A stretch of DNA of 64,000 nucleotides, from positions 496,001-560,000 of the forward strand of contig NC_009523.1 in assembly GCF_000016665.1 (NCBI RefSeq), in the 5' to 3' direction. The stretch is from Roseiflexus sp. RS-1 (GTDB taxonomy: Bacteria > Chloroflexota > Chloroflexia > Chloroflexales > Roseiflexaceae). The notes below the pieces were generated by a model. That model was not told where the DNA came from. It saw only the letters and a list, made by a program, of their open reading frames with translations, and did not search any database. Of this stretch, positions 40,265 to 49,996 are shown one piece after another. Made by a program: the position numbers and the translations under genes. Position 1 is the stretch's first letter. Every line of letters begins with the position of its first letter.

Positions 40265-40612
40265 GTCGGGCTGAAGCCCTCGGCTATGCAAGGCGAAGCC
40301 CGCCTGCGCGGGCTATGACGGATTATTTCTTCAAAGACCATGAGCTCCTGGTTATCCAGGGCAAAGCCCGCCTGCACGGGCTATGACGGATTATTTCTTC
40401 AAAGACCATCAGCCCTCGGCTATGCAAGGCGAAGCCCGCCTGCGCGGGCTATGACGGATTATTTCTTCAAAGACCATGAGCTCCTGGTTATCCAGGGCGA
40501 AGCCCGTCTGCACGGGCTAGAGCGGAATAATGACGCAAAGACCATCAGCCCTCGGCTATGGGAGGCGAAGCCCGCCTGCGCGGGCCAGAATCGTGTGCCC
40601 TGCTCCAGGAGT
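40265..40612 (+). repeat. 68-bp tandem repeat, five copies
   Basis: The sequence AAGCCCGCCTGCGCGGGC recurs at 40296, 40364, 40432, 40500 and 40568, always 68 bp apart. Copies alternate between two middle forms (GAGCTCCTGG and CAGCCCTCGG), so the higher-order unit is 136 bp. Each unit has a palindrome CCCGC-CTGC-GCGGG that could form a hairpin. Part of the unit also occurs, inverted, at 55.38-55.44 kb and 56.83-56.88 kb. Confidence 0.88.
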
Positions 40613-41930: not shown

Positions 41931-44444
41931 ATGCGAAAGCGGAACGTGATCATCGCCCTCATCGCGCTGACATTAGTGCTCTCGTCCACGCCAGCACAGG
42001 CAAGAAAGGTGTCGGATGTGGCAATTGATAAACGACCGGTCAAACTCGATAGGTATCTGTACCCAGGTGTAGCACACACCTGGATAGACAGCACCGGCAG
42101 CGAGGGGAGACTCATGACCAATCCGGGCAAAGCTCCGGCATCGCCGCTACCGCTAAGCAGGGTGATCGCGCTGGCGGCGGGTCGATATCATACCTGCGCC
42201 TTGCTGAATACAGGGACAGTGTGGTGCTGGGGATGGAACGGGTCTGGGCAACTGGGCGACGGGACGACTACTGATCGCGCGATGCCGGTGGCAGTGAGCG
42301 GATTGAGCGGGGTGACCGCGCTGGCGGCGGGTCGATATCATACCTGCGCCCTGCTGAATACAGGGACAGTGCAGTGCTGGGGATTGAACTCTTCCGGGCA
42401 ACTGGGCGATTGGACGATAACCAACCGCGTGACGCCAGTGGCGGTGAGCGGGCTAAGCGGGGTGATTGCGCTGGCGGCGGGCGATAGGCACACCTGCGCT
42501 CTGCTGGATACAAGGACAGTGCGGTGCTGGGGAGAGAACGAGCATGGGCAACTGGGCGATGGGACGACGAACGACCGCTGGACGCCGGTGGCAGTGAGTG
42601 GGCTGAGCGGGGTGACCGCGCTGGCGGCGGGTGGTCGTCACACCTGCGCTGCACTGAATACGGGTACGGTGCAGTGCTGGGGAGGGAATGGGGCCGGGCA
42701 ACTGGGTGACGGGACGAGAACCAGCCGCCTGACGCCAATGGCAGTGAGCGGGCTGAGCGGGGCAACCGCCCTGGCAGCAGGTTTCGAGCATACCTGCGCC
42801 CTGCTAGATACGGGCACGGTACGGTGCTGGGGGTTGAACTCATCTGGGCAACTGGGCGACGGGACGACCGAACGCCGGTTGACGCCGGTGGCAGTAAGCG
42901 GGCTAAGCGGGGTGACCGCGCTGGCAGCGGGTGACTTCCACACTTGCGCCGTGCTGCAGACGGAGACAGTGCAGTGCTGGGGGTTAAACTCCTCTGGGCA
43001 ACTGGGCGACGGGACGACCGAACGCCGGTTGACGCCGGTGTCGGTGAGCGGGCTGAGCGGGTCAACCGCGCTGGCAGCGGGTGGTGTGCATACCTGCGCC
43101 CTGCTGCAGACGGGGACGGTGCAGTGCTGGGGGCGGAACGAGTTCGGGCAACTGGGCGACGGGACGACCGAACGCCGGTTGACGCCGGTGGTAGTGAGCG
43201 GGTTAAGCGGGGCAACTGCGCTGACGGCAGGCGATAGGCACACCTGCGCCGTGCTGCAGACGAGGACGGCACAGTGCTGGGGAGAGAACTCCCCTGGGCA
43301 ACTGGGCGATGGGACGACGGAACGCCGGTTGACGCCGGTAACGGTGAGCGGGCTGAGCGGGGCGACCTCCCTGGCAGCGGGCGATGGTCACACCTGTGCC
43401 TTGATGAATGTGAGGACAGCGCAGTGTTGGGGGCGGAACTCGTCTGGGCAATTGGGCGATGGGACGACGGAACGCCGGTTGACGCCAGTAACGGTGAGTG
43501 GGCTGAGCGCAGCGACCGCACTGGCGGCAGGCGATAGTCACACCTGCGCCCTGTTGGATACGAGGAGGGTACGGTGCTGGGGGCGGAACTCGTCTGGGCA
43601 ACTGGGCGACGGGACAAGAACCGACCGCGTGACGCCAGTGGCGGTAAGCGGGCTGAGCGGGGCAACCGCGCTGGCGGCGGGCAATAGTCACACCTGCACC
43701 CTGCTGGATACGGGAACGGTGCAGTGCTGGGGGTGGAACTCGTCTGGGCAACTGGGCGACGGGACAAGAACCGACCGCGTGACGCCAGCGGCGGTGAGCG
43801 GGCTGAGCGGGGTGACCGCGCTGGCGGCAGGCGCCAATCATACCTGCGCCCTAATGGATTCGGGAACGGTGCAGTGCTGGGGGCGGAACTCGTCTGGGCA
43901 ACTGGGCGACGGGACAAGAACCGACCGCGTGACGCCAGCGGCGGTGAGCGGGCTGAGCGGGGTGACCGCGCTGGCGGCAGGCGCCAATCATACCTGCGCC
44001 CTAATGGATTCGGGAACGGTGCAGTGCTGGGGGCGGAACTCGTCTGGGCAACTGGGTGACGGGACAACCACTGACCGCGTGACGCCAGCGGCGGTGAGCG
44101 GGCTGAGCGGGGTAACCGCGCTGGTGGCAGGCGCTAATCATACCTGCGCGCTGATGCCGACGGGAACGGTGCAGTGCTGGGGGAAGAACGAGTTTGGGCA
44201 ACTGGGTGACGGGACGACGACCGACCGCCTGACGCCGGTGGCGGTGAGCGGACTGAGCGGAATAACCGCGCTGGCGGCGGGTAGCGAGCATACCTGCGCC
44301 GTGCTGAATACCGGCGCGGCGCGGTGCTGGGGGCGTAATCTATTCGGTCGATTAGGCATTAGTCCGCTGGACTACTCCCCGCTGCCGCGCACAGTGGTAA
44401 TCATCCCGCATCAGGTGTTCATTCCGGTCGTGTATCGGCCATAG
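41931..44444 (+). CDS. Secreted RCC1-repeat protein (beta-propeller)
   Basis: An 837-residue secreted protein with an N-terminal signal (NVIIALIALTLVLSSTPAQA) followed by fifteen RCC1 repeats of ~50 residues. Each has the form GxxHTCALLxTGTVQCWG, then NSSGQLGDGTTTDR and TPVAVSGLSG. Two to three RCC1 propellers would form. Adjacent copies at about 43.78-44.08 kb are almost identical at DNA level, which suggests recent expansion. The C-terminus reads HQVFIPVVYRP. Likely a surface or secreted binding protein. AGGAGGAAGGAG precedes the ATG. Confidence 0.9.
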   Translation: MRKRNVIIALIALTLVLSSTPAQARKVSDVAIDKRPVKLDRYLYPGVAHTWIDSTGSEGRLMTNPGKAPASPLPLSRVIALAAGRYHTCALLNTGTVWCWGWNGSGQLGDGTTTDRAMPVAVSGLSGVTALAAGRYHTCALLNTGTVQCWGLNSSGQLGDWTITNRVTPVAVSGLSGVIALAAGDRHTCALLDTRTVRCWGENEHGQLGDGTTNDRWTPVAVSGLSGVTALAAGGRHTCAALNTGTVQCWGGNGAGQLGDGTRTSRLTPMAVSGLSGATALAAGFEHTCALLDTGTVRCWGLNSSGQLGDGTTERRLTPVAVSGLSGVTALAAGDFHTCAVLQTETVQCWGLNSSGQLGDGTTERRLTPVSVSGLSGSTALAAGGVHTCALLQTGTVQCWGRNEFGQLGDGTTERRLTPVVVSGLSGATALTAGDRHTCAVLQTRTAQCWGENSPGQLGDGTTERRLTPVTVSGLSGATSLAAGDGHTCALMNVRTAQCWGRNSSGQLGDGTTERRLTPVTVSGLSAATALAAGDSHTCALLDTRRVRCWGRNSSGQLGDGTRTDRVTPVAVSGLSGATALAAGNSHTCTLLDTGTVQCWGWNSSGQLGDGTRTDRVTPAAVSGLSGVTALAAGANHTCALMDSGTVQCWGRNSSGQLGDGTRTDRVTPAAVSGLSGVTALAAGANHTCALMDSGTVQCWGRNSSGQLGDGTTTDRVTPAAVSGLSGVTALVAGANHTCALMPTGTVQCWGKNEFGQLGDGTTTDRLTPVAVSGLSGITALAAGSEHTCAVLNTGAARCWGRNLFGRLGISPLDYSPLPRTVVIIPHQVFIPVVYRP

Positions 44445-47589: not shown

Positions 47590-47774
47590 AGCAAGTAATG
47601 AACCTCGTGCTATAATGACCAGCATCGTCAGCAGTGGCGCTGCGGCGCAGAAAGGAGCCATTTTCCCATCTCCGCCGCGCCGCTGAGGATAGCACGCTCC
47701 CTGGGGTGCGTCAAGATTGCACATCTGTGATGGCACTCGGGTTGACGAGTATCTGCCAGCATACCGGACATCGT

Positions 47775-48209
47775 ATGATCCGCATTGTCCTGATCCTGAT
47801 CCTGACGGCATGGTTGTCGGCATGCACACTCCCTGCGCCGCCACAACCGACAACCCCGCGCCCGACGGCGCCGGTCATTCTTGAGATCACTCCAGCGCCG
47901 ACGCTGGATGTGGACGCCACTGCGACCGCATATGCCACATTGCTCGTTCCCTCACCGACGCCAGCCGGGCTGTACATCGTTCAGCCGGGCGATACGCTGA
48001 GCGAACTGGCAATCGCATTCGGCACAACGGTTGCTGAGATCATGGCCGCCAACGGCCTGACCGATCCTGATTCATTGCAGGTCGGGCAACCGCTGATCAT
48101 CCCCTCGCTGGTGGATACATCGCCGTCGCTGCGGGCAACGCCGACCCTTAGTGCGGGGACGGCGGATCAAACTCCGGCGCCGGCAACCCCGACACTGGCG
48201 ACCCCGTAG
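47775..48209 (+). CDS. LysM-domain lipoprotein
   Basis: A 144-residue lipoprotein: signal IRIVLILILTAWLSAC with lipobox LSAC, a proline/threonine-rich linker, and a LysM domain (YIVQPGDTLSELAIAFGT, LQVGQPLIIPS). The tail is again Pro/Thr rich. It is probably anchored at the outer face of the membrane and binds peptidoglycan or related glycan. Start ATG at 47775. TATAAT at 47612-47617 could be its promoter, giving a ~150-nt leader. Confidence 0.85.
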   Translation: MIRIVLILILTAWLSACTLPAPPQPTTPRPTAPVILEITPAPTLDVDATATAYATLLVPSPTPAGLYIVQPGDTLSELAIAFGTTVAEIMAANGLTDPDSLQVGQPLIIPSLVDTSPSLRATPTLSAGTADQTPAPATPTLATP

Positions 48210-48227: not shown

Positions 48228-48256
48228 TTGACAGGCGAAGCGATTTTCGGTATATT
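48228..48256 (+). promoter_or_regulatory. Strong promoter of the small SD-peptide transcript
   Basis: TTGACA (48228-48233) and TATATT (48251-48256) are spaced 17 bp. Expected start near 48263. Confidence 0.75.
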
Positions 48257-48308
48257 TGCAATGTCAATCCTTCAAAATTGCCGTTCAGGCGTAAAGGAGG
48301 TGATGCCC

Positions 48309-48353
48309 ATGAGTAATAAGCGTAAGGGCATCACTGTCGAGGTGGTGCGCTAA
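48309..48353 (+). CDS. 14-residue peptide with near-perfect ribosome binding site
   Basis: MSNKRKGITVEVVR, from ATG at 48309 to TAA. Eight bases upstream of the ATG ends AAAGGAGGTGAT-type text (48293-48304), which is complementary to 12 bases of the usual 16S rRNA 3' end. The peptide is basic at the N-terminus and hydrophobic at the C-terminus. I do not recognise it. The ORF is open in only one frame and is too short for codon statistics; the ribosome binding site is the main evidence. Confidence 0.5.
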   Translation: MSNKRKGITVEVVR

Positions 48354-48386
48354 GTCCATCCGCGGTGATGCCCAGGGCAAACAAAG

Positions 48387-48412
48387 AACCCTCGCAACAG
48401 CGAGGGTTTTTT
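48387..48412. terminator. Rho-independent terminator
   Basis: AACCCTCGC (48387-48395), loop AACA, GCGAGGGTT (48400-48408) followed by a run of T to 48412. It ends the small transcript. The complementary A-rich side is short, so for rplY on the other strand it would be weaker. Confidence 0.85.
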
Positions 48413-48431: not shown

Positions 48432-49088
48432 CTATTCTTCTTCCTCTTCCTTCGACTCGCGGCGTTCGCGCACCAGTTCCGGCTCGGCTGGCGTCTCGGC
48501 TGCCGCCTCCTCTTCTTCGCCCTCAGCCGCGCGCGTATGCGCGAGACCCACCACCAGTTCCTCGCCGGGGGTCACCAGCGTTACGCCGGGCGGCAGCATC
48601 AGATCGCGCGCGTGGATACTCTTGTCGAACGAATCGAGCGCGCTGATATCGACCGTGATGTGAGCAGGGATTGCGGTTGGCAGCGCACGGATTTCGATTG
48701 TGCTCAACACCTGGTTCAGCACTGCTTCGCCGCTTTCGACAAGCGGCGACTTCCCTTCGATATGGAGCGGGACGGCCACCTCCACCTCCTGGCGCAGATC
48801 GACCGCGCGGAAATCGGCATGAATAATATCGCGCGTCACCGGATGGCGCTGCAACGCATGGATGAACGCTGCGAGCGGCGGATGACCGGCGATGTGCAGT
48901 TCGATCAGCGAGGTGCGCCCGGCCTGGCGATAGATCGCCTGGAAACTGCGCGCATCGATCTGCACGGCAATTGGTTCGATGCCCTTCCCATAGACTGTCG
49001 CCGGCAGGATGCCGCTGCGCCGCAGCCGTTTGACCTTCTTGCCCAAAACCGAACGCGGTTCGAGCGATAGTGTGAATTTTTCCGACAT
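48432..49088 (-). CDS. rplY: 50S ribosomal protein L25 (long, Ctc/TL5 type)
   Basis: A 218-residue L25 of the two-domain type (binds 5S rRNA). N-terminal domain: [29 protein letters not shown]-terminal TL5/Ctc domain: [39 protein letters not shown]. The tail after residue ~190 is an acidic glutamate-rich run ([16 protein letters not shown]) typical of bacterial long forms. AAGGAGC precedes ATG; promoter TTGCAT-17-TACAAT on the minus strand at 49197-49169. Confidence 0.94.
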
Positions 49089-49236: not shown

Positions 49237-49266
49237 TTGACAAGAACAGGTGTGTTATGTCATAAT
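49237..49266 (+). promoter_or_regulatory. Promoter of lexA
   Basis: TTGACA at 49237-49242 and CATAAT at 49261-49266, spaced 18 bp. Confidence 0.65.
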
Positions 49267-49281
49267 GAATCTACCACAAAA

Positions 49282-49314
49282 GTTCTATCGAACAGGCTTG
49301 CGGTTCTGTGGAAC
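49282..49314 (+). promoter_or_regulatory. Two palindromes upstream of lexA, candidate LexA operators
   Basis: GTTCTATCGAAC (49282-49293) and GTTCTGTGGAAC (49303-49314) share the form GTTCT-N-T-S-GAAC and are 21 bp apart, two turns of DNA. They sit between the promoter and the ATG of lexA, where autoregulatory operators are expected. LexA of this lineage has not been matched to this sequence by me. Confidence 0.5.
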
Positions 49315-49339
49315 GGCGCCAGATGAAAGGGCAAAACGT

Positions 49340-49996
49340 ATGCGATCATCAGATCAACTCTCGGCGCGGCAGCGCGATATTCTTGGCTTCATCGAGGAGT
49401 TTACCCAGGAACACGGCTATCCGCCCTCCATCCGCGAAATACAGGATGGTCTGCGCATTTCCTCGACATCGGTTGTTGCCTACAATCTCCGCGCTCTGGA
49501 GAGCAAGGGCCTGATTGATCGCGACGGCAGGGTATCGCGCGGCATCAAGATCAAGAACATGACACCGATGCCCCTGAGCCGTGCGCAGGGCGGTCGGGTG
49601 CCGCTCCTGGGTGTCATTACCGCCGGTCAGCCGCTGCCCAACCCGGAAGACACGAGCACCACCGCCGTCGAGATGATCGAGGTTCCTGTCGATCTGGCGC
49701 CGCCTGAGAAATTGCAGAACGTCTATGCACTGAAGGTGCGTGGTCATTCGATGATCGATGCGCTGATCGACGATGGCGATATTGTGCTGATGCGCTATCA
49801 GGAGACCGCCGATAATGGTCAGATGGTCGCGGTGCGCATCGAGGACGATAATGCCGTGACGCTCAAGCGCTTTTATCGCGAGGGCGATAAGGTGCGTCTG
49901 CAACCTGCTAACGTCACTATGGAGCCGATCTACGTCGATGCAGCGCGCGTTCATATTCAGGGGCGCGTCGTTGGTGTGCTGCGGTCGATGTGGTGA
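49340..49996 (+). CDS. lexA: LexA SOS repressor
   Basis: A 218-residue LexA. The winged-helix N-terminus (LSARQRDILGFIEEFTQEHG, YPPSIREIQDGLRISSTS) binds DNA; the C-terminal S24-type peptidase has the self-cleavage site Ala95-Gly96 (GVITAGQPLP), Ser137 (VRGHSMIDALI) and Lys176 (AVTLKRFY). The protein represses DNA repair genes and is cleaved when RecA is activated. ATG at 49340 has AAAGGG upstream; an in-frame ATG at 49250 would run through the candidate operators. Confidence 0.95.
   Translation: MRSSDQLSARQRDILGFIEEFTQEHGYPPSIREIQDGLRISSTSVVAYNLRALESKGLIDRDGRVSRGIKIKNMTPMPLSRAQGGRVPLLGVITAGQPLPNPEDTSTTAVEMIEVPVDLAPPEKLQNVYALKVRGHSMIDALIDDGDIVLMRYQETADNGQMVAVRIEDDNAVTLKRFYREGDKVRLQPANVTMEPIYVDAARVHIQGRVVGVLRSMW

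Follow-up and report, generated by a model that had tools for sequence, protein, structure and literature searches.

Positions 48228-48412 on the plus strand of Roseiflexus sp. RS-1 DNA carry a stand-alone unit composed of a promoter, a 12-nucleotide match to the tail of 16S rRNA, an open reading frame (ORF) of 14 codons, three segments designated A, B and C, and a terminator. All coordinates are those of the window, which is the whole stretch of 64,000 nucleotides that was analysed. Segment B can pair either with A or with C, and copies of this arrangement are found throughout the class to which Roseiflexus belongs. With about even confidence, we read the element as a free-standing, ribosome-gated RNA switch for which the cycle of ribosome and RNA, rather than the encoded peptide, is the product under selection. 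The switch mechanism modelled below is plausible, and the feature is important when judged by its conservation among sequences.

Parts of the unit in Roseiflexus sp. RS-1

The promoter (48228-48256, plus strand, as for all parts of the unit) has a -35 element TTGACA at 48228-48233, a spacer of 17 nucleotides and a -10 element TATATT at 48251-48256, and scores 11 of 12 in a consensus scan. The predicted transcript is approximately 150 nucleotides long (48263-48412), wherein the start is inferred from the -10 element and the end from the terminator. A short hairpin, GCC-GTTCA-GGC, is located at 48280-48290, only two nucleotides upstream of the Shine-Dalgarno sequence. Its stem letters (CCGNNYAGG) are kept in most aligned copies, with the pairs present in 23-28 of 29.

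The Shine-Dalgarno sequence, SD1 (AAAGGAGGTGAT, 48293-48304), is a perfect 12-nucleotide complement of the 16S rRNA 3' end (ATCACCTCCTTT). This 12-mer occurs only three times in the genome of 5.8 Mb, once as SD1 and twice in antisense orientation, at the 3' end of each of the two 16S genes. SD1 is the longest anti-SD match of this genome and sits amid two covarying alternative helices. Segment A (GGTGATGCCC, 48299-48308) overlaps SD1, is near-invariant among copies and pairs with B. The ORF (48309-48353) begins with ATG at 48309, encodes the peptide MSNKRKGITVEVVR and ends with a TAA stop codon at 48351-48353. Within it lie segment B (GGGCATCACT, 48326-48335), which is complementary to both A and C, and a second Shine-Dalgarno-like sequence, SD2 (GAGGTGG, 48339-48345), located 6-12 nucleotides upstream of the stop codon. 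Segment C (48364-48373) is a second copy of A that is located 3' of the stop codon and pairs with B.

An intrinsic terminator (48382-48412; stem 48387-48408, T run to 48412) is located beyond C, is predicted to fold independently of the A/B/C switch, and is probably shared with the convergent gene for ribosomal protein bL25. When the region 48262-48412 is folded, its stability corresponds to z = -8.2, and none of 200 shuffled sequences is equally stable. An earlier note on this DNA, made from the letters alone, had claimed the TTGACA-17-TATATT promoter, the 12-base match to the 16S tail, the 14-codon peptide ORF with its terminator, and a word that is repeated with its complement in between. 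Each of these is present, the last as A and C flanking B.

Conservation and alternative pairing of segments A, B and C

With a plain DNA search, 38 of 60 relatives prove to carry the element, some of them from other families of the same order. Of 158 genomes of the class, a first covariance model, built from 29 copies, matches 131, and a second (R2), built from 75 diverse copies, matches 136. The second model also recovers 89 of the 93 genomes of good quality, defined by a completeness of 90% or more and a contamination of no more than 5%. Genomes of the class mostly have a single copy. Three genomes (G006, G008 and G032) have two diverged copies at different places (L012/L031, L021/L032 and L033/L034), each with its own B:C pairing. 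The A, B and C words and the ORF, on whose conservation in relatives the earlier note had staked its proposal, are thus conserved, and far more deeply than a reader of this one sequence could see.

The element is rarer outside the class, where three or more other families of Chloroflexota have clear members. An even draw of 400 genomes from the phylum yields 75 matches, mostly from the same class. R2 matches outside the class with E-values above about 1e-4 (L193-L196) were inspected and are unconvincing. A search pattern applied to 84,980 prokaryote genomes, strict enough that rarer variants elsewhere could escape it, gives 68 stretches that are essentially all from Chloroflexota. The exceptions by title are two metagenome-assembled genomes (MAGs) named only as 'bacterium' (L124, L138 and L149) and one MAG titled Candidatus Gracilibacteria (L164), whose element is probably mis-binned Chloroflexota DNA. 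A phage or mobile origin was considered and rejected, with the pattern giving no matches in viral contigs. The element is absent from the RNA family libraries searched and from the papers found: no Rfam family matches it at the gathering threshold in a scan of the window, permissive thresholds give weak terminator-type chance matches alone, and the open-access papers searched hold no description of it.

Among 29 Chloroflexales copies, A is near-invariant and B varies at five places. The changes in B (A to G and C to T) are all tolerated by wobble pairing with A, such that 290 of 290 A:B cells pair. For B:C in these copies, 95.5% of cells are paired and 23 carry double changes (shuffle mean 8.2), a level reached by none of 500 shuffles. 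The same picture is obtained from 91 copies representing many families, wherein A:B pairs in 885 of 910 cells and B:C in 847 of 910. In B:C, 90 cells show compensatory double changes, among them swaps of C-G to G-C. Compensatory changes in A:B are few and are located outside the core of the SD (GCTA/TAGC in L078/L107 and GCCT/AGGC in L080/L081). Each of the mutually exclusive helices that the earlier note had drawn from one sequence is thus preserved by compensatory change in relatives, which is the covariation it had proposed as a check. Judged by these comparisons of sequences, the A:B and B:C helices are both under selection, and the architecture of the switch is strongly supported. A gene for an RNA with two covarying alternative helices that is carried by 96% of the good-quality genomes in the class is unlikely to be minor.

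The alternation is also found where the letters differ, as in f34 (predicted by folding) and f65 (as read from the sequence). The f65 copies (L185 and L186) have an ORF of 12 codons and a segment B, GGCGTCACCTCC, that constitutes a near-copy of the 16S tail inside the mRNA.

Partition-function folding of growing chains predicts that A:B forms with a probability of 0.99 once B has been made, and of 0.95 when the chain reaches the stop codon. Once C is present, the predicted probability for A:B is 0.24 and that for B:C is 0.72. For the window copy the predicted exchange is complete, with A:B passing from 0.97 to 0.00 and B:C reaching 1.00 after C has been made. Predictions at 60 C are similar. 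These results accord with the earlier proposal that the SD can be hidden or exposed, in that B is predicted to hide the SD and the synthesis of C to release it. When C appears, the predicted free exposure of the SD core shows just a modest increase (from 0.21 to 0.34), because other local pairings occupy part of the core. In about one-quarter of copies A:B is predicted to be still favoured in the full RNA, and the median difference between two forced folds, A:B versus B:C, is just 1.5 kcal.

The reading frame, its surroundings and competing explanations

The ORF is 13-17 codons long in 95 of 96 distinct copies, and SD1 is represented by AAGGAGGTGAT in 89 of the 96. Start codons are ATG in 94 copies and GTG in two. 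Insertions and deletions within the ORF come in threes, and the codon phase of B is kept in 91 of 95 copies. B and the stop codon are 15 nucleotides apart in 71 of 91 copies and 18 nucleotides apart in 14, and the spacing between the stop codon and C is widely variable. In L029 (ORF from about 1522, minus strand), CAG takes the place of the usual TAG, and the ORF extends to 21 codons with a TGA end inside C.

The peptides, with 13-17 residues, are polar or basic and poorly conserved. Values of dN/dS, which are inflated since synonymous sites are also constrained and which come from pairs that are not independent, are approximately 0.90 upstream of B, 0.98 within it and 0.64 downstream of it. 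The last value leaves room for a weak amino-acid constraint. In codons 2-3, third positions vary no more than either of the other two. Two Ardenticatena-type loci keep B and read it in a different frame. Based on these alignments, the reading frame is conserved and the peptide is hardly conserved at all. The simplest reading is that the passage and position of the ribosome are selected, rather than the peptide.

These data bear most directly on the possibility that the unit is a micropeptide gene, for which the 13-17-residue peptide (M-S-S-x-x-x-G-[IV]-[TA]-x-x-x) is the product and the hairpins merely time its translation. The strong SD, the preponderance of ATG, the conserved frame and length, and the lower dN/dS after B would all be expected of such a gene. 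Likewise, G-[IV]-[TA] is nearly invariant within the class. However, G-[IV]-[TA] is precisely what B has to encode for pairing with A, and dN/dS is near 1 outside the stretch after B. Furthermore, the peptides of f34, f65 and Ardenticatena are quite different despite retention of the architecture, and L029 has lost the normal stop. We consider a micropeptide gene unlikely, and among the three options offered by the earlier note, 'peptide gene' fares worst, with the frame kept and the amino acids nearly unconstrained.

Stop codon usage and the SD-like sequence in the ORF are consistent with selection on the ribosome-RNA cycle. The 96 copies end with TAG (68), TAA (25) or TGA (3). TGA thus accounts for 3% of the ORFs of the element versus 47% of the long ORFs at these loci, a comparison in which the background list includes some spurious ORFs and the copies are not independent. 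An SD-like stretch is found 6-15 nucleotides before the stop codon across copies. The mean best anti-SD energy after B is -7.7 kcal, versus -5.3 kcal (sd 0.23) for shuffled sequences and -3.5 kcal for ordinary gene ends. SD2 is found in more than one reading frame, and therefore is more likely to be an RNA feature than an amino-acid one, and part of its role may lie in the B:C stem. Some lineages lack it, f34 among them.

Perhaps, then, the switch operates as follows. During transcription, formation of A:B would shut the SD, as folding predicts. Once transcribed, C is predicted to capture B and thereby free A, such that the finished RNA could load a 30S subunit. A ribosome reading through B would melt B:C and would then stop at UAG or UAA, mostly 15 nucleotides past B and often with the SD-like stretch in its exit channel. 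This combination of stop codon and SD-like stretch might delay departure of the ribosome. Meanwhile B, now just behind the terminating ribosome, could re-close A, which would permit a single ribosome per RNA at a time. The selected output might be the frequency or duration of ribosome holding, or the face that the RNA shows. Our best guess is that the RNA acts in trans on translation capacity, or reports on or buffers it. More tentatively, the element could be a class-wide housekeeping RNA that admits one ribosome at a time through three-strand exchange, that senses or buffers translation capacity or the activity of release factor 1, and that makes its peptide as a by-product. The 'regulatory RNA' option of the earlier note is thereby supported insofar as a conserved switch is concerned.

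If this switch model is true, the element would be a rare case in which translation of a tiny ORF is conserved without conservation of the peptide and without a downstream gene that relies on it. Passage of the ribosome would itself be the signal. In addition, A, B, C, SD2 and UAG provide concrete, testable letters for asking how cells might measure or limit ribosome use by means of RNA alone.

Another use of the same features would be ribosome titration, whereby the extended SD holds 30S or 70S ribosomes, both at initiation and through slow release at SD2 and UAG, and so lowers translation elsewhere, with the A/B/C switch timing the binding. The genome has no extended SD of this kind other than SD1, genomes of the class have 1-2 such sites each, the SD-like stretch is located at a pausing distance before the stop codon and TGA is avoided. 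Nevertheless, titration would require a high abundance of the RNA, SD2 is missing from some lineages, and an RNA made just for 30S binding needs no in-frame ORF with a fixed stop. Titration is therefore rated as quite improbable.

The genomic surroundings address a third explanation, in which the element serves a neighbour as its cis-acting leader or 3' element. The upstream neighbour in the window is a LysM-domain lipoprotein gene (47634-48209, plus strand; Pfam LysM 2.9e-16), whose true start is probably later than the one listed. Downstream is the convergent gene for ribosomal protein bL25 of the TL5/CTC type (48432-49088, minus strand; Pfam 1.5e-21 and 6.9e-22). At least 38 of 96 copies, from many families, are preceded on their own strand by a LysM motif, and the convergent bL25 gene is present in the family of Roseiflexus and in a second family, Thermomicrobiales being included. 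This arrangement looks like an ancestral one that is broken in other lineages such as Chloroflexus, where an RNase H-like gene (identified by eye) is located upstream. These recurring neighbours offer some support for a cis-acting role. Set against this, the element adjoins unrelated genes in many lineages, and the nearest downstream ORF is on the same strand in 38 copies and on the opposite strand in 48. Moreover, a -10 element with at least 5 of 6 matches is located 40-62 nucleotides before A in 55% of 95 copies, versus 6% of shuffles, and a terminator lies directly 3', within 100 nucleotides of the stop codon, in 81 of 96 copies versus 6 of 288 shuffles. A cis-acting role for either neighbour is accordingly judged to have a small chance of being correct.

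Consistent with the earlier observation that no gene follows on the strand of the element, downstream genes on the same strand share no family beyond close relatives. Given this and the presence of its own terminator and -10 element, the element is not an attenuator of a neighbour. A simple attenuator of a downstream gene was rejected on the strands and families of the neighbours. The resemblance to a leader or attenuator remarked on earlier thus holds for the short ORF with alternative hairpins and fails for ordinary attenuation.

Other features of the window include a LexA-like repressor (helix-turn-helix start, serine-protease-like end) at 49250-49996, just past the bL25 gene. There are also CRISPR direct repeats (Rfam CRISPR-DR28) with at least four copies above threshold at 40292-40587, and an 837-residue protein at 41931-44444 with repeated 'HTCALL..G.V.CWG.N..GQLGDGT' units that are RCC1-type-like.

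Finally, a conventional base-pairing sRNA that incidentally carries an ORF is very improbable: the size, promoter and terminator are compatible with it and there are precedents for dual-function RNAs with short ORFs (PMC8672173), but the sole conserved unpaired seed is SD1, for which the obvious partner is 16S rRNA, and the covariation between B and C shows that neither segment is a fixed seed.

Relation to known systems

Each piece of the proposed ribosome-gated switch has a precedent, and its free-standing combination was not found in the literature searched. Leaders and attenuators of amino-acid operons, such as Leu_leader (RF00512), likewise have a short ORF over alternative hairpins, with the position of the ribosome setting the fold and a terminator nearby. 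Unlike these, the element lacks a regulatory codon run (there is no common codon run across the 96 ORFs) and a downstream operon, and its terminator is separate from the switch. The corresponding Rfam scores are below the gathering thresholds, with 30.3 bits versus 50 for Leu_leader and 24.4 versus 55 for Phe_leader.

The Chloroflexi-1 RNA motif (RF01698) comes from the same phylum and was reported from Chloroflexus aggregans only (PMC2864571). It gives no match at the element even with permissive thresholds. Dual-function sRNAs such as VcdRP (PMC8672173) resemble the element in being stand-alone small RNAs with a short ORF. In the element, by contrast, the peptide is not conserved, there is no fixed seed apart from SD1, and the switch is far more deeply conserved. 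Extended-SD leader peptides of S. aureus provide an example of a short ORF with initiation driven by long SD-aSD pairing (PMC13009471). Those that have been described precede the gene they control, whereas the element stands alone.

A parallel for the predicted folding pathway is offered by type I toxin mRNAs such as hok and aapA3, for the latter of which a metastable hairpin that masks the SD in the nascent RNA is documented (PMC6733600). In both cases a hairpin of the nascent RNA conceals the SD until another fold displaces it, as predicted for the A:B helix before C is made. The peptide of the element is polar and has 14 residues, whereas type I toxins are hydrophobic and usually have about 20 residues or more. 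A consensus scan of the minus strand over the element reveals no promoter-like site for an antisense RNA. The direction of the exchange also differs: the later fold of a toxin mRNA locks the SD, whereas that of the element is predicted to release it.
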